Below, one piece after another: positions 9,740 to 61,683 of a stretch of 64,000 bases of DNA. The notes under the pieces were generated by a model that was given only the letters and a program-made list of their open reading frames with translations, did not search any database and was not told the DNA's origin. The position numbers and the translations under genes are program-made. Source of the DNA: Microglena sp. YARC (Eukaryota; Chlorophyta; Chlorophyceae; Chlamydomonadales; Chlamydomonadaceae). The stretch is taken from NCBI GenBank assembly GCA_022414725.1, contig CM039462.1, positions 128,190,455-128,254,454 of the forward strand. Reading direction: 5' to 3'. Position 1 is the stretch's first letter; every line of letters begins with the position of its first letter.

Positions 9740-9781
<42 letters not shown>

Positions 9782-9879: not shown

Positions 9880-12800
9880 CTGTGATGTACTGTAATGTAA
9901 TAGTAGCTGAGTTCTCACCATGATTACACTAATTGATGCCCACAAATAAACAATCCAATTTTGTGTTCTGCTTGCAAGGATTTTGTACAAGCTGGGACTG
10001 GGACTGGGACTATACTGCACTGTGATGCACTGTACTGTACTGCACAGTACTATACTTTAATGTAATAGTAGCTCAGTTCTCACCATGATCACACTAATTG
10101 GTGCCCACGAATAAACAATCAAATTTTGTGTTCTGCTTGCAAGGATTTTGTACAACCTGGTACTGGTACTGCACTGTACTGTACTGCACTGTACTGTACT
10201 GTACTGTGATGTAATGTAATGTGATATTAGCTCAGTTCTCTCCATGATTACAGTAATTGATGCCCACAAATCAACAATCGAATTGTGTATTCTGCTTGCA
10301 AGGATTTTGTACAAGCTGGGACTGGGACTGGGACTGTACCGGACTGGATTGTAATGTAATGTGATGTACTGTACTGTACAGTACTGTGATGTACTGTGCT
10401 AGTAGCTCAGTTCTCACTCACGATTACAATAATTGATGCCCACAAATCAACAATCTAATTTTGTGTTCTGCTTAAAAGGATTTTGTACAAGCTGGGACTG
10501 GTACTGGTACTTTACTGTACTGAACTGTACTGTAATGTACAGTACTGTGATGTACTGTACTAGTAGCTCAGTTTTCACCCACGATTACAATAATTGATGC
10601 CCACAAATCAACAATCGAATTGTGTGTTCTGCTTGCAAGGATTTTGTACAAGCTGGTACTGGGACTGTACTGTACTGTACTGTGATGTAATGTAATGTAA
10701 TATTAGCTCAGTTCTATCCATGATTACAGTAATTGATGCCCACAAATCAACAATCGAATTGTGTGTTCTGCTTGCAAGGATTTTGTACAACTTGGTACTG
10801 GTACTGCACTGTACTGTACTGCACTGTACTTTAATGTACTGTGATGTAATGTAATGTAATATTAACTCAGTTCTCTCCATGATTACAGTAATTGATGCCC
10901 ACAAATCAGCAATCGAATTGTGTGTTCTGCTTGCAAAGATTTTATACAAGCTGGGACTGGTACTGTACTGTACTGTACTGAATTGTACTGTACTGTGATG
11001 TACTGTAATAGTAGCTCACTTCTCACCATGATTACACTAATTGACGCCCACAAAACAACAATCCAATTTTGTGTTCTGCTTGCAAGGATTTTATACAACA
11101 CTACTGTACTGTACTGTACTCTACTGTACTGTGATGTACACTCAGTTCTCTCCATGATGACAGAATTGACGCCCACAAAACATCAATCCAATTTGTGTGT
11201 TCTGCTTGCAAGATTTTATACAAGCTGGCTGGGACTGGTTACTGTACTGAATTGTACTGTACTGTGATGTACTGTAATAGTAGCTCAGTTCTCACCATGA
11301 TTACACTAATTGACGCCCACAAAACATCAATCCAATTTTGTGTTCTGCTTGCAAGGATTTTATACAAGCTGGGGGTACACTGTACTGTACTGTGATGTAC
11401 TGTAATAGTAGCTCAGTTCTCAACATGATGACACTAATTGACGCCCACAAAACATCAATCCAATTTTGTGTTCTGCTTGCAAGGATTTTATACAAGCTGG
11501 GACTGGACTGTACTGTACTGTGATGTACTGTAATAGTAGCTCAGCTCTCAACATGATTTACACTAATTGACGCCCACAAAACATCAATCCAATTTTGTGT
11601 TCTGCTTGCAAGGATTTTATACAAGCTGGGAACTGGGACTGTACTGTACTGTGATGTACTGTAATAGTAGCTCAGTTCTCAACATGATTACACTAATTGA
11701 CGCCCACAAAACATCAATCCAATTTTGTGTTCTGCTTGCAAGGATTTTATACAAGCTGGGACTGGGACTGTACTGTACTGTGATGTACTGTAATAGTAGC
11801 TCAGTTTCTCAACATGACTTACACTAATTGACGCCACAAAACATCAATCCAATTTTGTGTTCTGCTTGCAAGGATTTTATACAAGCTGGGACTGGGGACT
11901 GTACTGTACTGTGATGTACTGTAATAGTAGCTCAGTTCTCAACATGATTACACTAATTGACGCCCACAAAACATCAATCCAATTTTGTGTTCTGCTTGCA
12001 AGGATTTTATACAAGCTGGGACTGGGACTGTACTGTACTGTGATGTACTGTAATAGTAGCTCAGTTCTCAACATGATTACACTAATTGACGCCCACAAAA
12101 CATCAATCCAATTTTGTGTTCTGCTTGCAAGGATTTTTATACAAGCTGGGACTGGGACTGTACTGTACTGTGATGTACTGTAATAGTAGCTCAGTTCTCA
12201 ACATGATTACACTAATTGACGCCCACAAAACATCAATCCAATTTTGTGTTCTGCTTGCAAGGATTTTATACAAGCTGGGACTGGGACTGTACTGTACTGT
12301 GATGTACTGTAATAGTAGCTCAGTTCTCAACATGATTACACTAATTGACGCCCACAAAACATCAATCCAATTTTGTGTTCTGCTTGCAAGGATTTTATAC
12401 AAGCTGGGACTGGGACTGTACTGTACTGTGATGTACTGTAATAGTAGCTCAGTTCTCAACATGATTACACTAATTGACGCCCACAAAACATCAATCCAAT
12501 TTTGTGTTCTGCTTGCAAGGATTTTATACAAGCTGGGACTGGACTGTACTGTACTGTGATGTACTGTAATAGTAGCTCAGTTCTCAAACATGATTACACT
12601 AATTGACGCCCACAAAACATCAATCCAATTTTGTGTTCTGCTTGCAAGGATTTTATACAAGCTGGGACTGGGACTGTACTGTACTGTGATGTACTGTAAT
12701 AGTAGCTCAGTTCTCAACATGATTACACTAATTGACGCCCACAAAACATCAATCCAATTTTGTGTTCTGCTTGCAAGGATTTTATACAAGCTGGGACTGG

Positions 12801-14595
12801 GACTGTACTGTACTGTGATGTACTGTAATAGTAGCTCAGTTCTCAACATGATTACACTAATTGACGCCCACAAAACATCAATCCAATTTTGTGTTCTGCT
12901 TGCAAGGATTTTATACAAGCTGGGACTGGGACTGTACTGTACTGTGATGTACTGTAATAGTAGCTCAGTTCTCAACATGATTACACTAATTGACGCCCAC
13001 AAAACATCAATCCAATTTTGTGTTCTGCTTGCAAGGATTTTATACAAGCTGGGACTGGGACTGTACTGTACTGTGATGTACTGTAATAGTAGCTCAGTTC
13101 TCAACATGATTACACTAATTGACGCCCACAAAACATCAATCCAATTTTGTGTTCTGCTTGCAAGGATTTTATACAAGCTGGGACTGGGACTGTACTGTAC
13201 TGTGATGTACTGTAATAGTAGCTCAGTTCTCAACATGATTACACTAATTGACGCCCACAAAACATCAATCCAATTTTGTGTTCTGCTTGCAAGGATTTTA
13301 TACAAGCTGGGACTGGGACTGTACTGTACTGTGATGTACTGTAATAGTAGCTCAGTTCTCAACATGATTACACTAATTGACGCCCACAAAACATCAATCC
13401 AATTTTGTGTTCTGCTTGCAAGGATTTTATACAAGCTGGGACTGGGACTGTACTGTACTGTGATGTACTGTAATAGTAGCTCAGTTCTCAACATGATTAC
13501 ACTAATTGACGCCCACAAAACATCAATCCAATTTTTGTGTTCTGCTTGCAAGGATTTTATACAAGCTGGGACTGGGACTGTACTGTACTGTGATGTACTG
13601 TAATAGTAGCTCAGTTCTCAACATGATTACACTAATTGACGCCCACAAAACATCAATCCAATTTTGTGTTCTGCTTGCAAGGATTTTATACAAGCTGGGA
13701 CTGGGACTGTACTGTACTGTGATGTACTGTAATAGTAGCTCAGTTCTCAACATGATTACACTAATTGACGCCCACAAAACATCAATCCAATTTTGTGTTC
13801 TGCTTGCAAGGATTTTATACAAGCTGGGACTGGGACTGTACTGTACTGTGATGTACTGTAATAGTAGCTCAGTTCTCAACATGATTACACTAATTGACGC
13901 CCACAAAACATCAATCCAATTTTGTGTTCTGCTTGCAAGGATTTTATACAAGCTGGGACTGGGACTGTACTGTACTGTGATGTACTGTAATAGTAGCTCA
14001 GTTCTCAACATGATTACACTAATTGACGCCACAAAACATCAATCCAATTTTGTGTTCTGCTTGCAAGGATTTTATACAAGCTGGACTGGGACTGTACTGT
14101 ACTGTGATGTACTGTAATAGTAGCTCAGTTCTCAACATGATTACACTAATTGACGCCCACAAAACATCAATCCAATTTTGTGTTCTGCTTGCAAGGATTT
14201 TATACAAGCTGGGACTGGGACTGTACTGTACTGTGATGTACTGTAATAGTAGCTCAGTTCTCAACATGATTACACTAATTGACGCCCACAAAACATCAAT
14301 CCAATTTTGTGTTCTGCTTGCAAGGATTTTATACCTGCTGGGACTGGGACTGTACTGTACTGTGATGTACTGTAATAGTAGCTCAGTTCTCAACATGATT
14401 ACACTAATTGACGCCCACAAAACATCAATCCAATTTTGTGTTCTGCTTGCAAGGATTTTATACAAGCTGGGACTGGGACTGTACTGTACTGTGATGTACT
14501 GTAATAGTAGCTCAGTTCTCAACATGATTACACTAATTGACGCCCACAAAACATCAATCCAATTTTGTGTTCTGCTTGCAAGGATTTTATACCTG
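9880..14595 (+). repeat. 129 bp minisatellite array, about 35 copies, seeded from the 5' edge of the AP2 exon
   Basis: The unit contains TAGTAGCTCAGTTCTCAACA, GACGCCCACAAAACATC and TGTTCTGCTTGCAAGG. Left copies (9.9-11.2 kb) are diverged and about 130-170 bp long, with variable TACTG runs. Copies from about 11.9 to 14.55 kb are nearly identical at 129 bp. Because 129 is 43 codons, one frame on each strand stays open for hundreds of residues; this is a side effect. The segment TTCTGCTTGCAAGGATTTTR plus what follows recurs at 14722-14790, immediately before and across the first AP2 coding exon. The copy at 14563-14640 already carries the exon start. Confidence 0.93.
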
Positions 14596-14770
14596 CTGGG
14601 TCTTCATTCAAAAATGAACTTCAGCTTATCTAAGGAGGCCCAACCCACCCCACACCCCACACCCCACACCCGCCGCCACCCACACCTGCCACCCACCCCA
14701 CACCCACCACCCACCACAACCCTGTGTTCTGCTTGCAAGGATTTTGTACAAGCTGGGACTTCATTTAAAA

Positions 14771-14883
14771 ATGAACTTCAGCTTGTCTACGGAGGAGAAA
14801 CATGAGTTGGACAATATGGGACTGGCAGATGTAATGGCCCAATTCAGAGCTGTCGCCAGGTCTAAAGACTCAAGTGCATACAG
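14771..14883 (+). CDS. AP2 gene exon a
   Basis: Starts ATGAACTTCAGC and ends at ACAG before GTGATTGG (phase 2). Encodes MNFSLSTEEKHEL, then GLADVMAQFRAV up to SSAYR. If the TTGCAAG at 14733-14739 is a splice acceptor, the exon begins at 14740 and the frame is open through it, so 14771 may not be the true start. The array to the left repeats this putative acceptor, which favours that reading. Confidence 0.8.
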
Positions 14884-15106
14884 GTGATTGGCCATATGCA
14901 AGAGAGAGTGGCAAGAATGGGGGGGCTACGGTCAGAGAGGGGGGGGGGGGGGGAGGGGGGTAAGGGGAAGAAGGCTACGGTGGCTAAGGCTATTCAGAGC
15001 TGTCGCCAGGTCTGAAGATTCAAGTGCATACAGGTGATAGGTATATATCATATTCGATAAAGGGTGGTAAGAAAGGGGGGGGGGAAGGCTACGGTCGGAG
15101 GGGGGG

Positions 15107-15157
<51 letters not shown>

Positions 15158-15181
15158 ACCACCACCATCATCACCACACCA

Positions 15182-15214
<33 letters not shown>

Positions 15215-15802
15215 TATCATCATCATCATCATCAAGTGCATACAGGTGATTGGTATAGGGTGCTGGGTACTGGGTGGGGGTGGGGATACACACTCACCCA
15301 GCACTGCCACTGAAACACTCCTATCCCTCCTGTGTTTGGCAAGATGGGCCAGCCCCTCATGTCTGGAGGTGGGGATTTTACACTGGTCAAGGTGGGGTGG
15401 GGGTGGCGATGCTGTGTGGTGGTGGGTGTGGTGGTGGAACTGGGTACTGGGGTGGGGGTAGGGGAAGAAGGCTACGGTAAGAAAGGGAGGGTGGGAGGCA
15501 GGGAAGTGGCAGACTGGCAGTACAGGAAGGATCGTGGTGCAATAGCTTAAGCTAGCTTTGGTAGAAAGCCAGACAGGGGATCTGCCTCAAAATTTGTATT
15601 TGCCAACAATGCAGAGGGGAGAGCGAGTCTATGCATGCAAGTGCATACAGGTGATTGGCCATATTCAAGAGAGGGTGGTATGAAAGGGGGGGAAGGCTAC
15701 AGTCGGAGGGGGTTTAGGGTTTAGGGTTTAGAACCCCTGAACCCTAAACCCTAAGAGAGGGTGGTAAGAAATTGGGGGGGAAGGCTACGGTCGGAGGAGG
15801 GT

Positions 15803-15834
<32 letters not shown>

Positions 15835-15884
15835 CGAAGGCTACGGTTGGAGGGTGGGTGGGTGGGGGGTGGGGGGGCTACGGT

Positions 15885-15915
<31 letters not shown>

Positions 15916-16072
15916 AAGAAGTCTACGGTCGGAAGGGAGGAGAGAAAGGGTGGTGAGTCCGAAGCGTTTGCAAATGAAAACAAGGCGGATGTGAGAGGGA
16001 TTCTCAACTTTCATGTGCACACATTTGATGGGCCATATTCAAGAGAGGGTGGTAACAAGGGGGGGGGGGGAT

Positions 16073-16112
<40 letters not shown>

Positions 16113-16375
16113 TTATAGAAAGGCAAGTACGTACAGGTGATTGGCCACATTCAAAACATCACATGTCTGCCATTGTTTTGAACCAGGGCTATCGCCAAAT
16201 CTATTCTAGAAAGGCAAGTGCGTACAGGTGATTGGCCACATCCAACACATCACATGGCCGCCATTGTTTTGAAACCTGTATCTTAACTGGAATCACATTC
16301 TCTGGCCTGTGTATCCAACACACATACACACACACACACACATGCAAGTACACACACACACGCGCATGCGCATGC

Positions 16376-16416
<41 letters not shown>

Positions 16417-16546
16417 AGCGCATGCGCATGCCAGCAAACACACACATACCTGCGCATGCACATGCTAGCACACACATGCACGTACACACACGCGCTTATG
16501 CACACACACACACACACACACACCACAGACACACACACACACCACA

Positions 16547-16588
<42 letters not shown>

Positions 16589-19500
16589 ACACACCACCCC
16601 ACCACATCACGTTGCAGGGGAGTTTGCTTCGACCCAAGGCACGCCAACGGGTGGCCTGTGAGAATATCCTTGACGTCATGCAAAATATACCTTGGCAAAT
16701 TCCAAAGTGAAGTTGAGGCAGCTTTGTGCTATGATCGTGCTGCTATAGCTCTTGGGTAAGTCTCTCTTACTTTAATTGTATTTTAATTGAATTCAATTAA
16801 TTTAATTTAATTGCGTTACAATGTAGCCCTAGTTGCTCTTGGGTAAGTCTCTTCAATTGAGTTAATTTAATTTTAATTGGATTTCATTTAATTTTAATTT
16901 AATTGCGTTACAATGTAGCTCTGAGGCAGCGTTGTAGTATGATAGTGCTGCTGCTGCCCTTGGGTAAGTCTCTCATACTTCAATTGTATTTTAATTTAAT
17001 TGTAATGGAATTAATTTAATTTAATTGCGTTGCAATGTAGTCCTCGTTGCTTGTTGGGTAAGTCTCTCGTACGTTAATTGTATTTTAATTTAATTGTTAT
17101 GGAATTCATTTTATTTAATTGCGTTACGATGTTGGTTGCCCTTGTTGCTTGTTGGGCAAGTCTCTCATACCGATCCCTAGCAGGGTCCTTCCAAGTGCGC
17201 GCTTATGCGCGCTGGCGCGCTGCCTTTTTGAACCCCACTGCGCGTTTCGCACAGTTTTTGCAACCCCCTGTGGGCGCAGCAAGCAATTTGTGCGCTTTTT
17301 GCACTACAAAGCGCAGTTTTTTGTTTTTCAAGTCCGCTAAAGTGCTGGCCAATTTGGTCAATGGAAGTACCCTGATCCCTATTTGGTATGATAGGGCTGC
17401 CGTTGCCATTGGGTAGGTCTCATCTCTCATAAAAAAAAAAGATAACGCCTGGAGGGGCGTGGTGTTAAGGGGACCCTCACGTACGCCGCAGCTGGGGAAA
17501 GTCACCATGGCAGACATAGTAAGTGTCACCCTCCAGGCGGGAGGGACTCCTTCATGCGACGTGTGGCAAGAATGCTGGTACATGAGGCGATAGACCTGGT
17601 GCAGCTAAGAGATGAGTTTGTCTACGTGTTCGCGACTGATCCCGAAGATGGAGAGATTGGTAATTGTTGTGATTGGTATGGTACCAGAGGTACCTACGGT
17701 GAAGACTAGGTAGTGGACAAGGAATCCTTGTTGTTGAAGGATACCGTGGAGCTCCTTATGCTGAACGCTCTTTTTCTGGAATCTCTCATAACTTACTCAA
17801 GACTGTTGTTTAAACATGTTCAATCCAGTTTAGGGTTTAGGATTTAGGGTTTAGAGACTGTTGTTGAAACATGTACCATTCAGTTTAGGGTTTAAGGTTT
17901 AGAGACTACTGTTGAAACATGTACCATCCAGTTTAGGGTTCAGGGTTTAGGTTTAGAGACTGTTGTTGAAACATGTACCATCCAGTTTAGAGTTTAGGGT
18001 TTAGGGTTTAGAGACTGTTGTTGAAACATGTACCATCCAGTTTAGGGTTTAGGGTTTAGAGACTGTTGTTGAAACATGTTCAATCCAGTTTAGGGTTTAG
18101 GTTTAGAGACTGTTGTTGAAACATGTACCATCCAGTTTAGGGTTTGGGGTTTAGAGACTGTTGAAACATGTACCATCCAGTTTAGGGTTTGGGGTTTAGA
18201 GACTGTTGTTGAAACATGTACCATCCAGTTTAGGGTTTAGGGTTTAGAGACTGTTGTTGAAACATGTACCATCCAGTACACATGAACATACAATACTCCC
18301 ATCCCTTGAGTTTTTTGGCGGAGCCCCCCCTTCTGGGACAAACATGTCCCATCCAGTACAACAGTGCTTTAAGATCTGTGACTACAGCATCCTGTCGCAA
18401 ATTTCGCCTTATTATTTTCCACAGACGCAGAGGCTGTGTCGCTTTCTGATTGACTCCGTGTGTACAGCATCCCGTTGCAAAGTTTGCCTTGGTAATTTCC
18501 ACATAGAAGCTGAGGCAGGGTTGTGTTATGATGCAGTCCGTGACTACAGCATCCCGTCGCAAAGTTTGACTTGGTAATTTCTACAGAGAAGCAGAGGCAG
18601 GTTTGCGTTATGACTGATTGAATCCTTGACAACAGCATCCCGTTGCAAAGTTTGCCTTGGTCATTTCTACATGTAAGCCGAGGCAGGGTTGCGTTATGAA
18701 ATAGTACGTGTGTACAGCATCCTGTCGCAAAGTTCGCCTTGGTAATTTCCACATAGAAGCTGAGGCAGGGTTGCGTTATGAAACAGTCTGTGACTGCAGC
18801 ATCCTGTCGCAAAGTTTGCCTTGGTAATTTCTACCTCGACGCAGAGGCAGGGTTGCGTTATGATAGAGTCTGTGTGTACAGCATCCTGTCGCAAAGTATG
18901 CCTTGGTAATTTCTACAGAGAAGCAGAGGCAGGTTTGCGTTATGACTTATTGAATCCTTGACAACAGCATCCCGTTGCAAAGTTTGCCTTGATAATTTCT
19001 ACATATAAGCAGAGGCAGGGTTGCGTTATGAAATAGTCCGTGTGTACAGCATCCTGTCGCAAAGTATGCCTTGGTAATTTCTACACAGACGCTGAGGCAG
19101 GGTTGCGTTATGACTTATGATTGAATCCTTGACAACAGCATCCCGTTGCAAAGTTAGCCTTGGTCATTTCCACATAGGAGCAGAGGCAGGGTTGCGTTAT
19201 GATACAGTCCGTGACTACAGCATCCTGTCACAAAGTTTGACTTGGTAATTTACATATAGGAGCAGAGGCAGCTTTGCGTTATGACTTTTTGAATCCCTGA
19301 CAACAGCATCCCGTTACAAAGTTTGCCTTGGTTATTTCCACATAGAAGCTGAGGCAGGTTTGCGTTATGAAATAGTCTGTGGCTGCAGCATCCTGTCGCA
19401 AAGTTTGCCTTGGTAATTTCCACATAGACGCAGAGGCAGGGTTTCGTTATGATAGACTCCTTGTGTACAGCATCCCGTCGCAAAGTTTGACTTGGTAATT

Positions 19501-22500
19501 TACACATATAAGCCGAGGCAGGGTTGCATAATGATACGAGTCCGTGACTGCAACATCCAGTCGCAAAGTTCGCCTTGGTTATTTCCACATATAAGCCGAG
19601 GCAGGGTTGCATAATGATACGAGTCCGTGACTGCAACATCCAGTCGCAAAATTCGCCTTGGTTATTTCCACATATAAGCCGAGGCAGGGTTGCATAATGA
19701 TAGAGTCCGTGACTGCAGCATCCAGTCGCAAAGTTCGCCTTGGTTATTTCCACATAAAAGCTCAGGCAGGTTTGCTTTATGATAGAGCTGTTGTTTTCCG
19801 TTGGGTAGGTCTCTCTCATAATTTGCTCCAGACTGTTGTTGAAGCATGTTCAATCTAGTTTAGGGTTTAGGCTGTAGGGTTTAGGATTTATAGACTGTTG
19901 TTACAACATGTACCATCCAGTTTAGGGTTTAGGTTGCCCATAACTTGCTCCAGACTGTTGTTGAAACATGTTCCATCCAGTTTGGGGTTTAGGGTTTAGG
20001 GTGCTCATAACTTGCTCCAGACTGTTGTTGAAACATGTTCCATCCAGTTTGGGGTTTGGGGTTTAGGGTGCTCATAACTTGCTCCAGACTGTTGTTGAAA
20101 CATGTTCCATCCAGTTTGGGGTTTAGGGTTTAGGGTGCTCATAACTTGCTCCAGACTGCTGTTGAAACATGTTCCATCCAGTCCAATAGATCATGAGAGC
20201 ACATAGCTTTATTCTGATGGGTTTGAGCAGTGAGCCTCCAGGGAGCATACTAAGCGGATCGAAGGCTCGGGTATGAAGATATTTAGGGAACGGCAACTAA
20301 TATTAGTGTTTGAAAAACTAATATTAACTAATATTATTATAGTGTCACAATAATATTAGTTTTTCAAATAAATTCGAAATTCTGGTGAGACGGCTCGTCC
20401 GACTAATATTATATAATATTATTTATTCACTAATATATATAACATAGCCAACCCCTAAAGATATTGGTTAAAGTATACCACGCACAGCCCCTTTCAGTGA
20501 TATACATTGGTCTAGTGGTAGACCAAATCACTCTGAGGATGAAGAGTCGGGGGTTCGATTCCCCCTTCGGTCGCTCTTGGCGTTGCAGGTCGTTGTCAAC
20601 CGCGATGGTAGCTTGTCCAGTTGAGGTAGAAGACCGCTCCCTACCCGCGTACGACGGGTGCCCTTAACACCACGCCCCACCAGGCGTTATCATTACTTTT
20701 TTAGATCATGCATATCCCTGTTCCGACGAATGGCTCAATGGTTGAGCTCCTAGAAAGAACGAAGAAGTTACCGGGTTCGAATCCCCACGGGTGCGATTTA
20801 GTGTTAGCAGTCGCTGTTCAACTGCCATGGCAGCTTTGTCTATGTAAAGTAGCAGCCCGTTCCCTACCGCCGTAAGACGGGGCTCCCTTAATACCACGCC
20901 CCACCAGGTGTTATCATTACATTTTGTTTAGATCATGCATATATCGAGCCCGGGCTGTATGATTCACTAGAACCCAGCATCTGACATGTCTGCAGTTCGA
21001 GCCCTTGCCAGGTTCCCCAATTCTAGGCCTGCCGCCTCGGAAGAGGTAGAGAACAGGGTACTTCAAATGGCCAAATTGGCCAGCGCTTTAGCGCACTTGA
21101 AAACAAAATAACTGCGCTCTGTAGTGCAAAAAGCGCAAAAATTGCTTGCAGCGCTCACAAGGGGTTGCAAAAAACTGCGCGTAAAGCGCAGAGGGGGTCG
21201 AAAAGTCAGCGCTCAAAAGCGAAAAAGCGCGCGCTTTGAATTACCCTGGTAGAGAACTCTCCTCCGTGCTGTCTCGCGGTAGTCCATGCTCAGGCGCAGT
21301 AGCGGTCTGCGAAACCCAAACCCAAAACAGTAGCCATTCTCCAGAACGTGCGGTGCATGCAAATGGGAGGGTTCCTTCAACCTCACGCCTCGTGGCAGGG
21401 CGTATGGATTTTCCAATTTTCGTTTAGGGTTTAGGGCTTAGGTAGGTAGGTACTTGCAACTCTTGAGTTTTGTACTTGCATCTTTTCAAGTTTGCATTTT
21501 TCAAGTACTTGCATCTTTTTTATTGTGTATCATTTATGTACTTGCATCTCTTGAGCTTTGTACTTTCATCTTTTCAATTTTGAATCATTTATGTACTTGC
21601 ATCTCTTAAGTTGTGTACTTGCATCTTGCCAACTTTGCATTTTTCATGTACTTGCATCTCTTGCGTTGTGTACTTATATCTTATCAAGTTTTTTTATTAT
21701 TTATGTATTTGCATCTACTGAGTTTTGTATTTGCATCTTTTCAATTGTGTGTCATTTATGTACTTGCATTTATGAGTTTTGTACTTGCATCTTTTCAATT
21801 TTGTATCATTCGTGTACTTGCATCTCGTGCGTTTTGTACTCGCATATTTTTCTTTGATTTTATCAGTCTCTCATTATGACGACAGGAGGTCAGATGAGGA
21901 GCTAAACTTTCCGGACAGAAGGGCTGAATCTGAATCCCTTGTTGACGACAAGCTGCTGTTGAAATTATTTGGCACCCTTGACAAGAACATGATCCAAGAC
22001 CTTGTCTTGCACATTCAACGGAATCGATCGAGAAACTCTGTAGTACAAGCTAAAGCTCTGGACTGTTGCCTGCAACGGGCTGCGGGCAACAGTCCAGGCC
22101 CCCTGATGGAGCCGGCCAGTCTGGTGAAACCAGGGAGCCAGACAAGACCCAGCGATGGGGGCAGACCCGGCCTATGCAGCCAGACAGGCCAGGCTGGAGG
22201 CAGCATTTTGAGCCCATTGATAGAGCCCAAGAAGGAAGCTATACCAGTCCCGGTGAGCCAGACAGGCCCGGCTGCAGGCAACAGGTTAGGCTCCCTCAAG
22301 GCTTGGCCTTTGATAGCGCCAGGCCATCCCCCTTCAGCCGGCCACACACTGCCCCAAAAGGGCGCTATACCAGTACCGCTGAGCCAAACAGGCCAGGCTG
22401 CAGGCAACAGGTTAGGCTCCCTCAAGGCTTGGCCTTTGAAAGCGCCAGGCCATGTCCCTTCAGCAACACCCGGCCCAAAAGGAAGCTATACCTGTTCTAC

Positions 22501-23399
22501 GGAGCCAGACAGGCCAGGCTGCAGGCAGCAGGTTAGGCTCCGTCAAGGCTTGGCCATTGAAAGAGCCACGCCATGTCCCTTCAGCCGGCCACACCCGGCC
22601 TTGGAAGGGAGCTATACCTGTTCCACTAAACCTGACAGGCCAGGCTGCAGGAAGCCCCTCTGGGCAATGCGGACGTGGGCTGGAGTCTGTGGTAGTAAAG
22701 CATGAGGAGGAGGAGGAGGAGGAGCCCATGAATGATGATTACAAAGCGGATAATGTGGGCAGTGGTGTCTATGATGACAGTGAGGAAGCTATCCAGGCGG
22801 ATGAGGGCACTCACGATGTGCATGGCCAGGGTCCAGCTACTGCTCGCAATCACTTGGATGGTGCAGTGCTTAGGAGGAGGAGGAAGAGGGCGAGGAGGGG
22901 TGAAGAGGATGCCGAGCCCCCTGATGAAGTACATGCTCCGAGTATGGGTTTTGCTGGGTTTGGCGGCCCCCTAATGAATGGCGATCAGCGGCAGCAGAGA
23001 CTTTATACTAGTGGGCTGATGGCTCTTGCAGATCTGCAAAGCGCTGTGGTAATAAAGAAGGAGCCAGACTATCTGGAGCAAGCTGGTGGGGCTCTTCCTA
23101 TCCTCGTTTTCCCTGCCCAGGCATCCATGTTCCCCTCTCCGGCTCCTGCATTATCTGCCCTGGAGCTCGCCTTAGTCGTCCCTGCAAGCATGGACACTCA
23201 GCATGGCCCCAACATGCCGGACACATCAGCCTTTGAGAGCATCAGTGGCTGGATCCCACTGGAGGTTGGTGACGGTGGACCTGAGAGTCAGCCTCATGCT
23301 CATCCGCCTCCTCCTCAGCTACTGCATCCTCAGCTACTTCAAGTGGTGATCAAACCTGATCCCGATTTAGCTGACATTTTACCACATGCGCTAGGATAG
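14771..23399 (+). CDS. AP2-domain protein gene, three recognised exons (14771-14883, 16618-16755, 21886-23399), frame-broken
   Basis: Joined exons give an N-terminal acidic/amphipathic segment (1-35), one AP2 DNA-binding domain (about 36-93) and a long C-terminal region. AP2 hallmarks are AYRGV at 36-40, WPVRI, YLGKF, EVEAALCYDRAA and the closing LNFP. The domain is split by introns after AYR and after ALG, both GT-AG and in matching phases. The C-terminal region has a ~42-residue tandem repeat, an RRRRKRARR basic stretch likely to be a nuclear localisation signal, and three related motifs (VVKHEE, VIKKEPD, VIKPDPD) resembling SUMO-attachment sites. Known AP2 proteins bind DNA and regulate transcription; the target here is unknown. 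The third repeat interval lacks 5 bp and shifts the frame, so the gene is broken, mis-sequenced, or has an unseen small intron. Start choice: first ATG in frame; an upstream coding exon is possible. Confidence 0.85.
14884..16617 (+). repeat. AP2 intron 1: donor-edge copies, poly-G, CA tracts
   Basis: The exon end plus donor (AGTGCATACAGGTGATTGG) recurs in decayed form ending near 15043, 15246, 15650, 16137 and 16228; the first copy includes about 45 bases of exon. A second unit with GAAGGCTACGGTCGGAGG repeats about ten times between runs of up to roughly 40 G. TTTAGGG and CCCTAAA meet head to head at 15714-15755. CATC/ATC repeats lie at 15165-15235 and CA repeats at 16318-16590. Confidence 0.85.
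16618..16755 (+). CDS. AP2 gene exon b (core of AP2 domain)
   Basis: Acceptor TTGCAG, donor GG/GTAAGTC. Encodes GVCFDPRHANGWPVRI, then YLGKFQSEVEAALCYDRAA and the end IALG. These are the strongest family-defining residues in the gene. The C residues flanking the YD motif are unusual but do not affect the signature positions. Confidence 0.92.
16756..17180 (+). repeat. Tandem copies of AP2 exon b 3' end plus splice donor
   Basis: After the real donor, four further units of about 100-110 bp end in forms of TTGGGTAAGTCTCTCATAC followed by TTAATT-rich intron. The unit near 16918 still contains GAGGCAGCGTTGTAGTATGA from the exon. Later echoes lie at 17388-17430 and 19770-19810. Confidence 0.88.
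17181..17374 (-). mobile_element. hAT-type MITE, family D, with 8-bp target duplication
   Basis: Inverted copy with termini CAGGGTCCTTCCAA and GGAAGTACCCTG. Flanks ATCCCTAG (17173-17180) and ATCCCTAT (17375-17382) match 7 of 8, consistent with the 8-bp duplications of hAT transposons. Confidence 0.85.
17431..17780 (-). mobile_element. SINE C, longest copy, with oligo-A/T tail
   Basis: On the minus strand the 3' part is the common SINE body (ACCACGCCCCTCCAGGCG, TTATC) followed by ten T. The 5' part (17590-17780) is not tRNA-like and carries, on the plus strand, a 51-codon open frame from 17554. Flanking ATCTCTCATAA lies at 17422-17432 and near 17781-17791. A related but shorter copy is at 50030. 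The head source is unknown. Confidence 0.7.
17810..18295 (+). repeat. Telomere-like minisatellite, ~50 bp, about 9 copies
   Basis: Unit: GACTGTTGTTGAAACATG, TACCATCCAG, then one to three TTTAGGG. Telomere motif and unique sequence amplify together, so this is a composite unit and not a plain telomere tract. Confidence 0.9.
18360..19800 (+). repeat. 17-copy array derived from an internal segment of AP2 exon b
   Basis: The ~83 bp unit reads CAAAGTTTGCCTTGGTAATT, TCCACATAGAAGC, TGAGGCAGGGTTGCGTTATG. Exon b has TGCAAAATATACCTTGGCAA, ATTCCAAAGTGAAG, TTGAGGCAGCTTTGTGCTATG in the same order and spacing. The array is therefore a diverged tandem amplification of coding sequence inside the gene's own intron. 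All copies carry frame-disrupting changes. Confidence 0.88.
19840..20190 (+). repeat. Second telomere-like minisatellite, ~66 bp, about 5 copies
   Basis: Unit: GCTCATAACTTGCTCCAGAC, TGTTGTTGAAACATGTTCCA, then GGGGTTTAGGG. Shares TGTTGTTGAAACATG with the array at 17810. Confidence 0.9.
20283..20440. repeat. AT-rich inverted-repeat element starting TAGGGAACGGCAA
   Basis: A perfect 17-bp inverted repeat, TTTGAAAAACTAATATT at 20309-20325 with its complement at 20352-20368. The first bases match the terminus of family H, suggesting a different MITE with hAT-like ends; the right end was not found. Confidence 0.55.
20485..20699 (+). mobile_element. SINE B
   Basis: AGCCCCTTTCAGTGATATAC start, A-box-like TGGTCTAGTGGTAGAC, B box GGTTCGATTCC, and body ending GCGTTATCATTAC. 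No own target duplication found; its 3' end is the target site of the next SINE. Confidence 0.85.
20716..20926 (+). mobile_element. SINE A with exact 16-bp target duplication
   Basis: A-box-like TGGCTCAATGGTTGAGC, B box GGTTCGAATCC, body ending CAGGTGTTATCATTAC. Flanked by TTTAGATCATGCATAT at 20700-20715 and 20927-20942, identical, so a recent insertion directly behind a SINE B. Confidence 0.92.
21054..21248 (+). mobile_element. hAT-type MITE, family D, reference copy, exact 8-bp target duplication
   Basis: Termini CAGGGTACTTCAAA and TTTGAATTACCCTG are inverted repeats. Flanked by GTAGAGAA at 21046-21053 and 21249-21256, exact. CAGGG ends with 8-bp duplications are typical of hAT elements. 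195 bp and no coding capacity. Confidence 0.93.
21886..23399 (+). CDS. AP2 gene exon c (end of AP2 domain and C-terminal region), frame-broken
   Basis: The acceptor at ACGACAG (21885) joins GG from exon b to give G-R-S-D-E-E-L-N-F-P, the expected end of an AP2 domain. An earlier AG at 21866 would give a stop at once. From about 22110 to 22680 a ~126 bp (42-codon) unit repeats with core QAAGNRLGSLKAWPLKAPGH. The interval between equivalent points is 126, 121 and 126 bp; the 121 interval (22364-22485) causes the frame change. After it the frame continues through acidic EEEEEEEP, RRRRKRARR, IKKEPDY and ends DILPHALG, TAG. Confidence 0.8.
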
Positions 23400-24390
23400 C
23401 ATCTATTTGGCTACCCCTAGACTGTAACCACATGCATGCATATATGCATGCATAACCACTAATATACCACACTCTTGAGGACATAATGTAATTAGTTGTA
23501 TCTCCCAACACCCCTAAGTGCGCCTGCTCTTTTGTAGACTGAATCCTCGGGGTCGCTGGTTTGTGTCGGGAGACCTTTCACAACTTAAAAAAAAAGTTGC
23601 CTTGGATCATCAACGATTATATAAATTCCATCAAATCCTCCCAGCATTGGACTTGTTCCCCCAAAATGGGCCCATTATCTTCCCATGGATTTCCCCCACT
23701 AGGTTTTTCACTTAGGCATTTTTGATTTTGTCTTATGACTCTCCTAATCCCGGACCTCTAACAATCCAGAATCCTTTATGCACAATGATGCATATTGCTT
23801 TGGAACTTATGATTAGGTACGCGGGATGGCTTGTTGGAGAAAAAGCTAACGCATCCAGGCAGGTGCCAATCTTGGCTGTATGTCATGCATGCTGTCAAGT
23901 GCAAGTACTCAAAGAGCGTTTTGAAGGACCCCTTTAAATCCTAGGAACTCTGGCAGCGCAAAGTACCAGTAATTGGAGGGGATGTTATGGTACGACTTAT
24001 ACGTCGTACCATGTGACATTTGATGTCGCGTGTCGTGTTGACTAGAGGCTACTATTCATTGTGCCCACGCCAATCAGTTGCAATGTTGGCATGTACTGCT
24101 CCCGATGTCTGATTACTTACCTCTTGAGCATCGGCTTCCAAGCCATCTTATCGCTTGTAACCACAGTGAGCATCTGTTTGTATGTTACAATCCAGGGGTA
24201 GGCCAAAATAAATAGGCTAAGGGGACTTGCCCAACCGTATATGAAGGGCTTAAAAATAAGTGAGCATCGAATGTACCGTGATCGTGCAGTCCCTCGAGTC
24301 GCAAAAAACAAAACCGAATCCTAGGAACTCTGACAACGCTTATTACTTGTGTAATGAGTTAATTGTAATGAGTCCCCTCACTCCACTCCC
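23400..24390. other. Intergenic; possible solo-LTR-like segment
   Basis: No gene recognised. ATCCTAGGAACTCTG occurs at 23939 and again near 24319, bracketing about 380 bp that begins GGAGGGGATGTTATGG, a sequence resembling a polypurine tract before an LTR. 24185-24262 recurs inverted at 59178-59241. I cannot define LTR ends. Confidence 0.35.
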
Positions 24391-24410
24391 AAGGGACGCC
24401 TTGGTCGATT

Positions 24411-24460
24411 CCATCTCGTTGATGAAGGTTGACAACTGTCAACCTTCATCAACGAGATGG
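24411..24460. repeat. Perfect 24-bp-arm hairpin, 2-base loop
   Basis: Arms 24411-24434 (CCATCTCGTTGATGAAGG, TTGACA) and 24437-24460 are exact inverse complements around AC. Imperfect pairing extends to 24398-24410 with 24461-24473. Might be a MITE core, a cruciform or a foldback artefact. Confidence 0.85.
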
Positions 24461-24473
24461 ACTCGACTAAGGG

Positions 24474-24784
24474 TACGGAAATGTAATCTAGTGATTTCAA
24501 CATGAAAAGAATTGTGACTAATTAACATACGACCAAATAATGTGTTTCTGATGCGCAATCCAGAAGTGGAAGGTAGTGCAAAGCTGCTATGTTAATTCAT
24601 GAATGCATGAAAATATTGGATGTATAAGAAAGTTTAGCTTTACTATTTTGATAGATATAAACGATTAAATTTTCTTGGTAATTTGCTGTACTGTTACTTA
24701 GACAGCAAGCAACCAAGGTGCTCGCCGGAGCCATGTAATTAAATTCCAAGTTTGTACACTTGGGGTCAAGTAGGGTTTGAGTGA
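24474..24784. other. Unassigned intergenic spacer
   Basis: AT-rich, no feature seen. Confidence 0.4.
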
Positions 24785-24975
24785 TGATAACGCCTGGTGG
24801 AGCGTGGTATCGTCACTCGTCTTACGGCATTAGGGAACGGGCTGCTACTTTACATGGACAAAGGTACCATGGCGGTTGACAGCGACTGCAGACACTAAGG
24901 CGCACCCGTGGGGATTCGAACCCAGCACCTTCATCGTTCAGAGAGCTCTGCCACTGAGCCATTCCTTGAACGGGG
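24785..24975 (-). mobile_element. SINE A
   Basis: Minus-strand copy: head with GGTTCGAATCC equivalent, CCATGGTACC region and GATAACGCCTGGTGGAGCG at the plus-strand left end. Some internal loss in the body. Flanks not resolved. Confidence 0.8.
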
Positions 24976-25059
24976 ATATTAAGGGTCGAGCTTGATCACA
25001 CTCTTGCATTGACTCAAGCTTGAGTGCCGAGAACAATGTTGAGAAGATGAAAATGATAA

Positions 25060-25255
25060 TGATATGGTGGGGCGTAGTATTTAGGCGCCATACGCGGGCG
25101 AAGAACGGTCTACCACCTCAACTGGACAAGCGACCATCCCGGTTGACAACGACCAGCAACGCTTAGGGTGACCGTAGAGGGAATCAAACTCCGGAACCCG
25201 CTTCGTTTCAGCGATTTGGTGTACCACTAGACCAATCGTATCACTGCCACGGGCT
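25060..25255 (-). mobile_element. SINE B, diverged
   Basis: Minus-strand copy with TACCACTAGACCAAT (A box region) and GATAATGATATGGTGGGGCG at the body end. More substitutions than other SINE B copies, hence older. Confidence 0.8.
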
Positions 25256-25732
25256 TTGAAAAGATTTATTACATAGACTAAGCGTCAATATCCTTTCCGC
25301 TGTTCTTTCCGTCTCTAGTTTATTTCCTCTTTTGGAATTGACCTAAGTTGTTTTTTAGGGTTGTTGGGGTACCTTAAACCCCCTCGTGCTTCCGCTTATA
25401 CAATTGGATGGTCGGCAGGCTGTGTTGTCGTCCAGTCTCGGCAGTGATTTACTAAGTTGACAAATCTTCTATGTAAATATGGATATGTTTAAAGGGAAGG
25501 GGGGGGATTCTTGTGCAGAGCAAGGCACCAGGTAAGTGGAAGGTATACAAGCAAATGTCTGGTTTGATGAATGGCTAAGATAAATAAAATAAAAAGTACG
25601 CCTTGTTACAAGGCGAGAGGTTGGGGGGCCCGTTTGCTTTCTCTGGGCCAACCACCCGAATGGCTAAGATGGTATCGGCACAGAAGAAGAAGAAGAAGAA
25701 GAGAAGAAGGAAGAAGAAGAACGAGGAAGAAG

Positions 25733-25763
<31 letters not shown>

Positions 25764-26280
25764 TTAGGAGTGGTGCATCGTTTGTCAGCCACACCCGGGC
25801 CACTCCTCGTGAGGGTTGTTCAAGGGTGCTTCAAAATCTTCGTTTTGAATTTGAATTCAGACATTCATAACAGGGTTGTTCAAGGGTCCTTCCAAATCTA
25901 CGCTTTGAGACGAACAGTTTAGAAAGTCAACGTTTCATGAGTCTAACGGAGGGCTACTCCCTAGCCCCGCCTGGTCACTGATTAGGCTATTACCCACGCA
26001 CCATTCCACAATCACAATCCGCTGTGAAATCGATCGTCCACACCAGGACCCCCCCGACCCCGACCCCCCCCCCACCCGCCCGCCCGCCCCCTGGTGCGAC
26101 GTCTCAGCCACAGGCCCTCTGCCCACAGGATACGCGACTCGACCCGAATTCATCCACTCGCTTTGATGAGGTGGCGAACCATCCATACCACATCTACCTC
26201 TCTCTATTTGTTAGACCACCTTTGACCCGTATACGCATCCCATACACCAACCACATGGCCATGCACTCTCTCTTTCTCAG
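25256..26280. other. Intergenic / 5' region of the FtsH-like gene, with a GAA repeat
   Basis: A GAA/AAG trinucleotide tract at 25683-25762 and a C-rich tract at 26046-26092. ATGGCCATGCACTCTC at 26254 opens a 28-codon frame that looks like the start of a transit peptide but is out of frame with the downstream exon. Confidence 0.45.
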
Positions 26281-26750
26281 CACGCAACCCTGCGCGCGAG
26301 CCATCTGTGCTGGGAGCTCGCGGCTTCAAATGCAATCGTGAAGCAAGCAATCCTAGACACTTTTCCTCCCCTTGCGGTCTCAATTTTATCGCTCCTAGAT
26401 TTAGAGCCTCGGGACGAAGCTTCCAGACCGACCATGCGCTGCCAAATCGCTCTGGGGGGGACAACAATCAGGGTGGGCCATCGCCAAGCGGGCGAGCTCC
26501 TAGCCCTCCTGGATCGAATGAGCAGGCTGGTGATTCGTCCCCGCAGCAAACAGCAGCATCCCAAGCAGGGTCCCAGGCGTCAGAACCTGCTGGTGTGGCA
26601 AGCGCTCCCTGCCCCCCCTCAGCCGGGGGCCTGACCCAGGCCCCAGGAGCCCCCGCGCGCTTCCCTGAACTTAGCCTTTGGACTCATTGCCAAGCTGTTC
26701 AGTTGGTTGGGGCAGTCGTTAACCAAGGCATCCAAAACCCAACATGTTGA
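26281..26750 (+). CDS. Putative 5' exon of the FtsH-like gene (3' end uncertain)
   Basis: A pyrimidine-rich acceptor (CTCTCTTTCTCAG) precedes an open frame CA-CGC-AAC running to TGA at 26748-26750. The peptide is rich in Ser, Pro, Ala, Gly and Gln, with stretches such as SGGDNNQGGPSPSGRAPS, then FPELSLWTHCQAVQLVG. This fits a transit peptide or linker before a membrane ATPase, but no domain identifies it. The next recognised exon starts in phase 0; TTG/GTTGGG near 26707 could be a donor. No ATG is in frame upstream, so another exon or a sequence error is needed. Confidence 0.42.
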
Positions 26751-29038
26751 CTGTCATGGAGGCTGTTTGCAATCACAGCTGGGATGCTTTCTCATGGCCT
26801 CGTCAGAGGCCTGTGTTGTAGAAGAGGCCAAGCCGCACACCCAAGAGGGTAGACACGAGTAGACATGGAAACATGCACAGCACAGAGGCACGCAACATGG
26901 CATGCACGCAAACACATGCACGCATGCACACACATGCACATGCACATGCATGCGCATTCACGCACTTGCATGCATGCACGCACGCACACACATACACACA
27001 CACACATACACAAACACATACACATACACATACATGGATGCACATCCACTCATACACATCCCCGCCAAATACAAACACACGCATACCCCCCCCCCCCCCC
27101 CCCCCCCCCCGCACACAACCACCACCACCACCATCACCCACCCTCACCACTACAACTCCACCCACATTCCCCAACCATAGCACCTCCCCCACCCACCCAC
27201 CTACCAACCCAGCCCATCCACACCCATCCACCGCACACCTTGTCCCCCCGCTGGTAGGTCCTATCCTCAATCTCACCTCCACCTCACCTCCACCTCGCTC
27301 CACCTTCGTCACACTTCAAAATGAGAGAAGCACATTTGCACACACATGTGGCACATGACCGCCCCCCCCCCCCCCCCCCCACAACACACACACACACCCA
27401 ACTCCTCCCACACCCATCCATCCCCTCCCCCCCCCCCCACCCCCCCCCCCCCCCACACACACACACCCATCCACTCCCCACCTCGTCCCTGCTGTAGGTC
27501 CTATACAGACACATTCGTCACACTTCTAGATGACGAGAAACACATTCGCACACACGTGTGCAACATGACCCCCCCCACCCCCCCCCACCCCCCACCCCCC
27601 ACACACACCCACACAAGACTCAATGCTGTCAATGCTGTCAATGCTGTAGGTCCTTTACCCCGAACCTGTGTGTCCTTTGTCACACTTATAGATGATAAGA
27701 ACACATTCGCACACACGTGTGTACATGACCCCCCACGTCCACCACCGTACCACACCACCACCACCACAACACACACAACACACACACACACACACACACA
27801 CACATCCCCCACACGAGGTCCGCGTCACACACACACTAGCACACACCAAACACTCACCACACCTCCCCATCCCCACCCAACCCCACCTCACGTAAGGATC
27901 ACACCACACACCTCGTCCTGCTGTCCTACACAAACAACGAAACACGAGGAACACACACACACACAACCTCCCCATCGCCCCTCGACCCGTATTCCCCCCC
28001 CCCCCACACACACACACCCATCCCCCCACACACACACAATGACACTCACACTACACACTCCCATGCCCCCTGGCCCACGCGCACCCCACCCACTCCCCCA
28101 ACCTACACCCACCCACCCACTTGTCCTGTATACATCTGTCCTATTACCTGCATACCTCCCATCACGTGCACCCGCCACCTACCACCCCACACACAACCCA
28201 TCCCCCCCCACCACCCCCATGTGCCCACACCCCACTCCAACCTGTGATTAACACCCACACACATACCTCGTGCCCGCGGGTTGGGGCTGGTAGGTGGGCC
28301 GGGTTGTTGCTGTCCCTACATGCGACGCACGTGCGAGTAATGGGCCACGGTGGTAAACACTGCCACTCATCAAACACACGCAACACCCACCCCCCCATCT
28401 AAATATACCCCCCCCCAACCTACACCCACCCTCAACCCGTCCCTGCTGTCCCCTACATAGCGTGCCAACCTACACCCACCCACACACCTCCCATACCCCC
28501 CCCCCCCCAACCTACACCCACCCACACACCTTCGTCCTGCTGTCCCTACACACGTGCAACCTACACACACACACACACCTCTCCATCCCCCCCCCACACA
28601 CCCACACCACACACACCACACACACACTCCAACCTACACACACCACACACCTCGTCCCTGCTGTAGGTACTATACACCACATGTGTCACACTTCTAGATG
28701 ACGAAAAACACATTCGCACACACGTGTGCACATGACCCCCCCCAACCCCATCCCCCCCACCCCACCCCCACCCGCTCCCCCCTCCCACACACACACGCAC
28801 ACACCCTAACCCCCACCTACACCCATCCACCCCACCAACACACACACACGACACCTCCCATCCCCCCCCCCCCCCCCCCCCACATACACACACCCACACA
28901 CCCTCGTCCCTGCTGTCCCTACACACGTGCAACCTACACACACACACACATAACACCTCCCATCCCCCCCCACACCCACACCCAACCCACACCCACACTC
29001 CAACCTACACCCACCCACCCACCGCGTCCCTGCTGTAG
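26751..29038 (+). repeat. Intron with acceptor-edge copies of exon 2 among CA and poly-C tracts
   Basis: Before the true exon start at 29039, forms of CTGTAGGTCCTATAC, CACATTTGTCACACTTCTAG, ATGACGAGAAA occur near 27252, 27495, 27648 and 28667. Each copy is followed by ACACATTCGCACACACGTGT and then C runs. Shorter CTGCTGTCC echoes occur between them. The first 50 or so bases of exon 2 have thus been copied at least four times into the intron. Confidence 0.88.
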
Positions 29039-57221
<28,183 letters not shown>

Positions 57222-57770
57222 GGAAGGCGGCAATCGTTACAGCAGTATATTAGCCAGGCTGCTGCCTCGGGTTTGACCACATGTTTGACCACAGATTAGT
57301 CAGGCTGCTGCCTCGGGTTCAACCACAGATTAGTCAGGCGGCTGCTTCGGGTTTGACCACAGGTTTGACCACAGATGCAACCCCAAAGGTGGTATGAGGA
57401 AGGCGGCAATTGTTACAGCGGTATATTAGTCAGGCAGCTGCCTCGGGTTGGACCACAGGTTGGACCACAGATGCAACCCCCAAGGTGGTTCGAGGATGGC
57501 GGCAATCGTAACAGCAGTAAATTAGTCAGGCTGCTGCTTGGCCACGGGTTTGACCTCAGTTGCAAGCAACAAGGTGGTGTGAGGAATGCGTCGCCACCTC
57601 TAGCTTCTACTCACCTACTCCTGGCTTCTGCCAACCTGCCTCTCGATCGACCACAGATGCTAACCCCAAGGTTGTTTGAGGAAGGCACCAATCGACGCCA
57701 CCTCTAGCTTCTACTCACCTACTCCTGGCTTCTATCCACCTGCCTCTCGATGAACCACAGTTGTAAACCA
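57222..57770 (+). repeat. Tandem copies of the exon 11 3' end
   Basis: About five units of TTACAGCAGTATATTAGTCA, GGCTGCCTCGGGTTTGACCA, CAGATGCAACCCC, AAGGTGGTATGAGG, increasingly decayed to the right. The junction CCCCAAG/GTGGTNTGAGG is the best-conserved part. Confidence 0.9.
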
Positions 57771-57789: not shown

Positions 57790-57960
57790 CCAGCTCTGCT
57801 GCCTGAGACACAACCAATTGTATAGCCTGCGTCCTGCGACGCAACGGACCCTTCCTTCTGGTCAACGGACCCTCACAGCGTTGCGTCCTGCGACGCAATG
57901 GACTCATCGACGTTGCATCTAAGACAGAGGACACAGCGTCCTGGACAACCATGCTGTGAA
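57790..57960 (+). repeat. Dispersed repeat with GCGTCCTGCGACGCAAC
   Basis: Similar to 49500-49680 inside the 3.5 kb insertion, in the same orientation. GCGTC-N-GACGC units form small hairpins. Nature unknown. Confidence 0.65.
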
Positions 57961-58034
57961 CCCCAAGTGAGCGTGGTGTGAGGTTGACGCCAATCGATGC
58001 CATTACAAGTCCTATGCAGCGTCGCAAGCGTCAT

Positions 58035-58215
58035 GGAAAATTGGCTGGGTGTCAAGGCTACGGAACGAAAGGTGGCAACACTGGAGCTGACCGAAGAGAG
58101 TTAGTTACGCGACCGTTGGCTGACATGTCGGGCTTCAAGTTTTTCGTTTTTCGGGCTGACAGACAAATGGGTAAACATGGGAGCTCCCGCCCCCTTGAAG
58201 AGGGGGCTCGGCCAA
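58035..58215 (-). repeat. Dispersed repeat F
   Basis: Inverse of 40695-40910: GGAACGAAAGGTGGCAAC, GAGTTAGTTACGCGACCGTT, CGCCCCCTTGAAGAGGGGGC equivalents. Confidence 0.75.
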
Positions 58216-58398
58216 TAATATATTATATATATTGAGGAAGGGGCTAAGCGATGCTATTATATGTTACTGGGCTCCAAATGTGCCCGCGGCTTACCAGAGT
58301 TGTATTGCTTTATATACAATGAATTTCACCTCCCGTACTGCTTCCATTTGTTGACTTCTTACTGGGAATAAATTTTGACTCTAGGGTAACTGCCCCCC

Positions 58399-58441
<43 letters not shown>

Positions 58442-59344: not shown

Positions 59345-59448
59345 CTTTGGGCCGCCCAGAAATAGCTATATGGAGGCTGTTCTGGGAGGAGGACTAAAAC
59401 CAAAAAGCTAGCAAAAAGTCACTTTCAGATTTGAAAAAAAAATCCCTG
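59345..59448 (+). mobile_element. Family G relic, right half
   Basis: TTGGGCCGCCCAGAAATAGC, then GGGAGGAGGACTAAAAC and TTTCAGATTTGAAAAAAAAA ending TCCCTG. Confidence 0.65.
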
Positions 59449-59566
59449 AAATGATCAGTACCGTTATGCAACGGTTTCCTTAATCTTTCAAAAATTGCAG
59501 GATGTATATTGTTGACTTCTGTCAGGTAAATTTATATCTTATAATTGCTATATGAATAGACATTGA

Positions 59567-59775: not shown

Positions 59776-59776
59776 G

Positions 59777-60600: not shown

Positions 60601-60604
60601 GTAG

Positions 60605-60785: not shown

Positions 60786-60857
60786 GGCAGATCTACAGCG
60801 GGGTTTGAACCGGCCTAGAGGCTTGTGGCTAACCCCAAACCCTAAACCCTAAATCTT

Positions 60858-61674: not shown

Positions 61675-61683
61675 GAAAGTCGG

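Follow-up and report, generated by a model that had tools for sequence, protein, structure and literature searches.

Long introns sampled in Microglena sp. YARC are built largely of repeats that often straddle exon edges

The long introns sampled in the genome of Microglena sp. YARC are built largely of repeats, the units of which often straddle the edge of the adjoining exon. The introns examined are those of a 64,000-nucleotide stretch (G000:C1:128190455-128254454, hereafter the window) of an assembly of 568 Mb in 2,390 contigs, and those of 22 further genes. The introns probably grew from a few hundred bases by tandem duplication that was blind to exon boundaries, with splicing that would discard the resulting half-exons.

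Ten FTSHi-like exons, located between positions 29,039 and 57,221 on the plus strand of the window, combine into a single open frame of 434 codons in which all introns are bounded by GT-AG. The model matched Pfam AAA (2.4e-45) and AAA_lid_3 (2.5e-11) with no peptidase domain among the 22 Pfam families listed, an AAA core and lid without a protease domain in the model as is typical of FTSHi-type AAA proteins. The closest named relatives are chlorophycean, with 61% identity for C. eustigma and 73% identity over 70% of the query for Dunaliella salina; one relative is annotated as an inactive (chloroplast) metalloprotease, hence the label FTSHi-like. Alignment of the exon junctions to six relatives revealed no insertions at the junctions. 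Use of the exons is predicted from the open frames, the conserved borders and a paralogue. The features are listed in Table 1.

Table 1. Modelled exons and exon-edge copies in the window (window coordinates).
Feature	Position	Strand	Basis or remark
35 edge-spanning copies of putative 5'-UTR acceptor, AP2 exon 1	9962..14638	+	129-bp array included
AP2-like exon 1	14740..14883	+	putative 5'-UTR acceptor 14740, ATG 14771
6 donor-edge copies, AP2 exon 1	14992..16245	+	
AP2-like exon 2, most of AP2-like domain	16618..16755	+	edge search, paralogue matches
1 edge-spanning donor copy, AP2 exon 2	16922..17120	+	
82-bp x 17 array holding 6 matches to AP2 exon-2 tail	18378..19787	+	
AP2-like exon 3 region	21886..23399	+	one frame open to 22705, a second to 23399
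4 copies of FTSHi exon-1 head, 2 of them across acceptor	27298..28708	+	exon blast
FTSHi exon 1 of model	29039..29239	+	open-frame model and alignment to relatives; model starts here, further upstream exons possible
5 acceptor-edge copies, exon 2	29704..31468	+	edge search
FTSHi exon 2	34555..34638	+	open frame, relatives, paralogue
2 donor-edge copies, exon 2	34813..35207	+	edge search
2 acceptor-edge copies, exon 3	36052..36524	+	edge search
FTSHi exon 3	36677..36780	+	open frame, relatives, paralogue
1 donor-edge copy, exon 3	36806..37022	+	edge search
8 acceptor-edge copies, exon 4	38304..39572	+	edge search
FTSHi exon 4	39695..39788	+	open frame, relatives, paralogue
~45-bp repeats from exon-4 donor, few exon bases	39839..40470	+	extent by eye; 3 window matches
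FTSHi exon 5	42108..42216	+	open frame, relatives, paralogue
17 acceptor-edge copies, exon 6	42320..44601	+	edge search
FTSHi exon 6	44710..44831	+	open frame, relatives, paralogue
23 donor-edge copies, exon 6	44936..48397	+	edge search
1 acceptor-edge copy, exon 7	52640..52759	+	edge search
FTSHi exon 7	52831..52963	+	open frame, relatives, paralogue
1 donor-edge copy, exon 7	53245..53302	+	edge search
5 acceptor-edge copies, exon 8, 125-bp period	53423..54054	+	edge search
FTSHi exon 8	54155..54361	+	open frame, relatives, paralogue
2 donor-edge copies, exon 8	54426..54570	+	edge search; one identical to real site over 24 bases
FTSHi exon 9	55357..55471	+	open frame, relatives, paralogue
2 donor-edge copies, exon 9	55531..55825	+	edge search
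9 acceptor-edge copies, exon 10	55863..56966	+	edge search
FTSHi exon 10, with stop codon	57086..57221	+	open frame, relatives

BLAST searches of the window with the ten modelled exons (E≤1e-3, both strands) returned 82 matches comprising 10 self-matches and 72 copies. All 72 copies were on the plus strand adjoining their own exon, 66 of them in the flanking introns or 5' of exon 1 and six behind the stop codon. No exon copies were found in other introns of the window at this threshold, and two short non-local matches (58817 and 20237) appeared at E≤0.05. These results confirm the original prediction that the introns harbor arrays of their own exon edges, which the further genes described below harbor as well. 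With 60-bp windows centered on the edge and low complexity masked, at least one local copy was detected at 15 of 19 FTSHi splice edges, the exceptions being two acceptors (exons 5 and 9) and two donors (exons 1 and 5), and each of the nine introns had at least one copied edge. Edge-spanning copies, counted from 10 exon bases up, numbered 2, 5, 2, 8, 0, 17, 1, 5, 0 and 9 for the acceptors of exons 1-10 and 0, 2, 1, 0, 0, 23, 1, 2 and 2 for the donors of exons 1-9. Copied FTSHi edges carry 1 to 25 copies reaching approximately 12 to 94 exon bases, ranges wider than the 2 to about 18 copies and 20-60 exon bases first claimed. The exon part of the copies was 75-97% identical to the FTSHi exon (3-25% different), which argues against simple assembly stutter.

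Repeats identified by TRF account for 55% of the 26,878 bp of FTSHi intron and all self-repeats for 77%, the TRF coverage elsewhere being 2.7% of positions 23,420-26,400, 14% of 57,800-64,000, 19% of 1-9,800 and 8% of exons. Units matching an edge together with its 150-bp intron flank cover 42% of the FTSHi intron, native flanks included. In intronic minisatellites, units follow one another head to tail, share variants and vary in copy number. The arrays described here, composed head to tail of similar units with shared variants, belong to this class; they are distinguished by units that carry exon bases (~12-94) together with the adjoining exon's splice site. The copies in FTSHi and in the other genes also agree with tandem duplication crossing the exon-intron boundary. 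Units with TTTAGGG-like motifs were observed inside the intronic arrays at 17800-18277, 19815-20182 and 53110-53240. Repeat modules that by eye look SINE-like and tRNA-derived are present near 20500, 20740, 24800, 25100, 41300 and 54850, in which ARAGORN identified no tRNA gene. A Copia-like open frame (integrase, gag pre-integrase) occupies 62110-63993, with a JGI protein 89% identical over 68% of the part searched.

A second gene in the window, of three exons, reads like that of an AP2-domain protein. Exon 2 matched Pfam AP2 with E=0.0092 and 16.7 bits, below the curated cut-off of 33.3 bits, and the 145-residue model matched no Pfam family at E≤1e-3. The search of the genome returned at least 149 AP2-like matches (150 of 446 candidates scored), largely in the same three blocks; the matches break near residues 38 and 85, supporting the AP2-like exon borders. 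Genes with these exon blocks form a large genome-wide family of at least 149, many of them located at C1:41.5-44.0 Mb. Both internal donors are copied, with 6 and 3 window matches and with 6 and 1 edge-spanning copies, and neither of the two internal acceptors is. The claim that almost every exon edge is copied needs correction in that some edges, four FTSHi edges and both AP2 internal acceptors among them, lack a copy. Within AP2-like exon 3, at 22238-22736, units recur at spacings of 126, 121 and 126 bp, and CAG/GTTAGG is present in three of them. The 121-bp unit breaks the frame, which would be restored by its removal at AG/GT; in all, 58 GT..AG pairs restore it, and this unit is a candidate for the birth of an intron of the AGGT type.

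A panel of other genes was obtained by spliced alignment with three protein queries: the FTSHi protein, aligned to 19 further loci; E. coli CarB, to two algal CarB genes; and the AP2-like protein, to four paralogues. The confidence rule was passed by 72 of 134 modelled introns, in 22 genes besides the window FTSHi. Locus L010 was excluded as a near copy of L009, and L017, L024 and L027 yielded no confident intron. The panel consists mostly of AAA relatives of the FTSHi query, only CarB and AP2 being unrelated to it. A copied edge was present in 0 of 14 introns below 400 bp, 11 of 19 of 400-800 bp, 12 of 17 of 800-1,500 bp and 20 of 22 above 1,500 bp. For introns of at least 800 bp the proportion was 32 of 39, in 18 of 19 genes, and at least one copied edge was present in 19 of the 22 genes, which are spread over several large contigs. 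The content of tandem repeats increases with intron length (Spearman 0.50, window introns included). A 6,742-bp intron of L020 has 47 donor-edge copies, and in a 5,627-bp intron of L018 no edge copy was found. CarB, an unrelated enzyme gene, behaved like FTSHi; it also forms a compact and expanded pair (L033-L039), of ~14 kb on C6 and ~42 kb on C5. Four minus-strand exon matches were observed in the other genes at E≤0.01. The results from the 22 genes, CarB and AP2 included, support the view advanced originally that a general process of repeated tandem duplication across boundaries operates in unrelated genes.

The same prediction had centered the process on splice junctions. In such a scheme, breaks or slippage at splice sites, for example at AGGT or at R-loops, would make exon edges hot spots. 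The rate expected for edges was taken as the random-window rate of each intron itself. In 50 introns of at least 800 bp from 21 genes, 65 of 100 edges were copied versus 59.4 expected (P=0.11), the outcome named beforehand as speaking against a junction-centered process. The other genes alone gave 49 versus 45.1 expected of 78 edges in introns of at least 800 bp (P=0.18) and 32 versus 27.0 of 44 edges in introns above 1,500 bp (P=0.057), the latter value leaning toward edges. At E≤1e-5, with 44 introns and the AP2 genes left aside, copies were found for 53 of 88 edges (0.60), for 1283 of 2200 windows placed at random in introns (0.58), for 566 of 880 located 31-300 bp away from an edge (0.64) and for 10 of 168 in exon interiors; with masking off, the random (0.69) and near-edge (0.75) intron rates in this test exceeded the edge rate of 0.60. 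In FTSHi, with matches behind the stop codon left out, local copies were found for 15 of the 19 edges, for 145 of 174 windows drawn at random 60-300 bp from an edge and for 610 of 1,000 drawn at random from the introns as a whole. That copied windows were densest near the edges, compared with 307 of 611 beyond 600 bp, is also as expected for junction-centered amplification. None of the 113 FTSHi exon bases at least 80 bp from an edge was covered by copies. The results indicate that edges are not significantly preferred, as far as tested, although there may be a weak preference since edge copies are slightly above expectation. Amplification centered on junctions is therefore considered unlikely.

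The content of the copies was evaluated for 43 internal exons, each 60 bp or longer and confident at both borders, from the window FTSHi, the AAA genes and CarB, with AP2 left aside. The 127 local copies comprised 64 with only the 5' edge, 41 with only the 3' edge, 21 with neither and one with both, a 70-bp exon at 71% identity. None of the 127 was on the minus strand and none of the 105 edge copies was on the wrong side, so that the side rule of the prediction, with acceptor and exon head upstream and exon tail and donor downstream, was borne out. One further match was located outside the adjacent introns. Tandem or mutually exclusive exon duplication, characterized by both splice sites and coding constraint, does not describe these copies.

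A compact FTSHi paralogue (L009, C3:14831500-14840500) has eight introns, all at positions common with the window gene, and exons of 94, 109, 122, 133, 207 and 115 bp are identical in length in the two genes. The introns of the paralogue are 334, 287, 217, 243, 318, 920, 1,523 and 503 bp and the matching window introns 5,315, 2,914, 2,319, 2,493, 7,999, 1,191, 995 and 1,614 bp, seven of eight being longer in the window gene and one shorter. Since positions are shared, old introns were lengthened, and the AGGT route of intron gain offered originally is not the source of most arrays; the eight shared introns of the nine in the window gene are not new gains, nor is AGGT-type duplication the form of the edge arrays. 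The 188-bp exon of the paralogue corresponds to 84 + 104 bp, leaving window intron 2 (34639-36676, 2,038 bp) without a counterpart, which could be a gain or a loss relative to the paralogue. The longest intron of the paralogue has its own donor-edge array (63 bp x 14.7) that starts in the exon tail, and no copied edge was found in the other seven, the 920-bp intron included. Nucleotide differences between the paralogues by codon position were 91/58/237, with a pS of 0.76 (synonymous differences saturated) and a dN of 0.18, indicating that both genes are old and constrained. The short introns of the paralogue make ancestral introns of a few hundred bases likely, in agreement with medians of 198-343 bp given for six core-Reinhardtinia species in the available part of a published survey (PMC8226300). 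Locus L010 (C140:10500-18500) is a near repeat of the C3 paralogue with intron lengths within ~1 base, perhaps the other haplotype.

Tandem repeats are error-prone in assemblies and the window contains 1,000 N, features that would suit an assembly artefact, yet the divergence of the copies from their exons and the copied edges in other genes on several large contigs argue otherwise. A dead gene in decay is at variance with the 434 open codons over ten exons and with the coding constraint in the paralogue comparison. Either origin for the arrays is considered highly improbable.

Growth by boundary-blind tandem duplication would proceed as follows. A duplication over an acceptor would place an intron tail and exon head upstream, and one over a donor would place an exon tail and intron head downstream, so that the observed sidedness would follow with no special mechanism. 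Where a duplication fell inside an exon or took in all of it, the protein would be altered and selection would presumably remove the change. Duplication of a single edge would leave an orphan splice site, an acceptor on the upstream side or a donor on the downstream side, which could persist if splicing is by exon definition; that half-exons are spliced away thus predicts exon definition. In the exon-8 acceptor array, two bases differ from the real exon in all five copies, and such shared variants absent from the exon suggest that arrays likely also expand among their own copies. The scheme was simulated with random placement of duplications and splicing as the only filter, the target being the observed 14 of 18 internal FTSHi edges. 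Starting from introns of 80-400 bp, the target was reached in 74-98% of runs with one extra copy per event and in 2-28% with 1-3 extra copies; it was reached in no run with up to 8 or 15 extra copies or with ancestral introns of 1,500 bp. Given this sensitivity to step size, the reading is backed by the simulation only where steps were small or founding events came early. The 46 clean two-copy pairs identified in 293,622 bases had a median of 5 extra matching bases at the breakpoints with 12 of 46 below 0; many of the pairs seem to lie inside larger arrays. The duplications may have been caused by slippage, unequal exchange or break repair.

Retention of splice sites speaks in favor of copies kept for a regulatory function in splicing, whether as decoy sites, as alternative exons or as points of recursive splicing. 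The tabulation of retention proposed with the prediction, performed with exon-only queries and with the two non-local matches dropped, showed both splice-site bases kept in 39 of the 44 FTSHi acceptor copies and in 18 of the 20 donor copies. Several decoys equal the real core splice site, including five extra AAGGTGAGC donors in the exon-6 intron, and there the site sequence alone cannot separate the real site from the copy; pairing across the exon would do so. Conservation of the splice bases as a sign of function was rejected: an earlier ungapped profile from a hand-picked list gave 0.97 at the splice bases, and with all local copies in gapped alignment the splice pair ranked only third and second among 19 adjacent pairs, ties included, its retention not clearly exceeding that of its neighbors. 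A functional role is further at odds with the single copy of 127 that has both edges, with the different sets of copied edges in the two FTSHi paralogues and with the spread of changes across codon positions. Differences from the exon by codon position, with matches behind the FTSHi stop left out, were 54/43/70 for distinct changes and 85/65/148 for all instances, suggesting that the copies are under much less coding constraint than the two paralogues. The sequences give no sign that the copies are used in splicing, and retention for function is judged very unlikely. The idea that copies are fossils of older exon states was also rejected, the paralogue agreeing with the copies at 3 and with the exon at 7 of 16 shared differences.

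Introners occur in green algae among other organisms. In the available part of the report on these elements (PMC9860276) they are present in 5% of the eukaryote species searched, and they resemble the arrays in producing bulk intron sequence by amplification. Introner-like or reverse-spliced elements as a source would entail dispersed copies, each a whole intron, a pattern that was not found within the window, where each copy lies beside the exon from which it derives and on that exon's strand, the unit is not a whole intron, and other introns contain no copy at E≤1e-3 (two short non-local matches at E≤0.05). Such a source has next to no probability.

Zhuo et al. in 2007 reportedly described human introns from tandem arrays with repeats that include splice sites; the arrays described here differ in that they flank conserved exons and look like filler, with no evidence that the copies are used. 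Tandem duplication has been reviewed as a demonstrated route of intron gain (PMC3443670, part available), and in the RdRp gene of potato a boundary-crossing tandem duplication produced a new intron (PMC4974935). As far as the available part of the latter report describes, the potato duplication likewise crosses the intron-exon boundary with the native splice site, the extra exonic piece becoming intron; there one event gave one new intron, whereas here existing introns have gained length through arrays that reach tens of copies, on a scale that takes in most of the long introns sampled. Searches of the freely accessible literature on intron gain by tandem duplication turned up single cases and no account of exon-edge arrays as general intron filler, and the available parts of papers on Limnomonas, Haematococcus and Raphidocelis contain no mention of such arrays. 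The scale of boundary-crossing duplication found here is new as far as searches show.

Lengthening of introns is usually ascribed to transposons. In the introns sampled, tandem duplication over exon borders appears to be a main route of growth, and two paralogues with the same introns show this growth at different stages. The chances are evenly balanced that runaway, border-ignoring duplication sets intron length genome-wide, with long introns as fossil beds and genes kept readable by exon definition. Splicing in relatives such as Volvox and Chlamydomonas is believed to proceed by intron definition on account of their short introns, as stated in the available part of a published study (PMC4378016). 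If the reading is true, the genome of Microglena sp. YARC is a natural collection of decoy splice sites, thousands in number and some with the same core as the real site, which the cell must separate from real sites through exon context alone, and these natural decoys would permit a direct test of a switch to exon definition.
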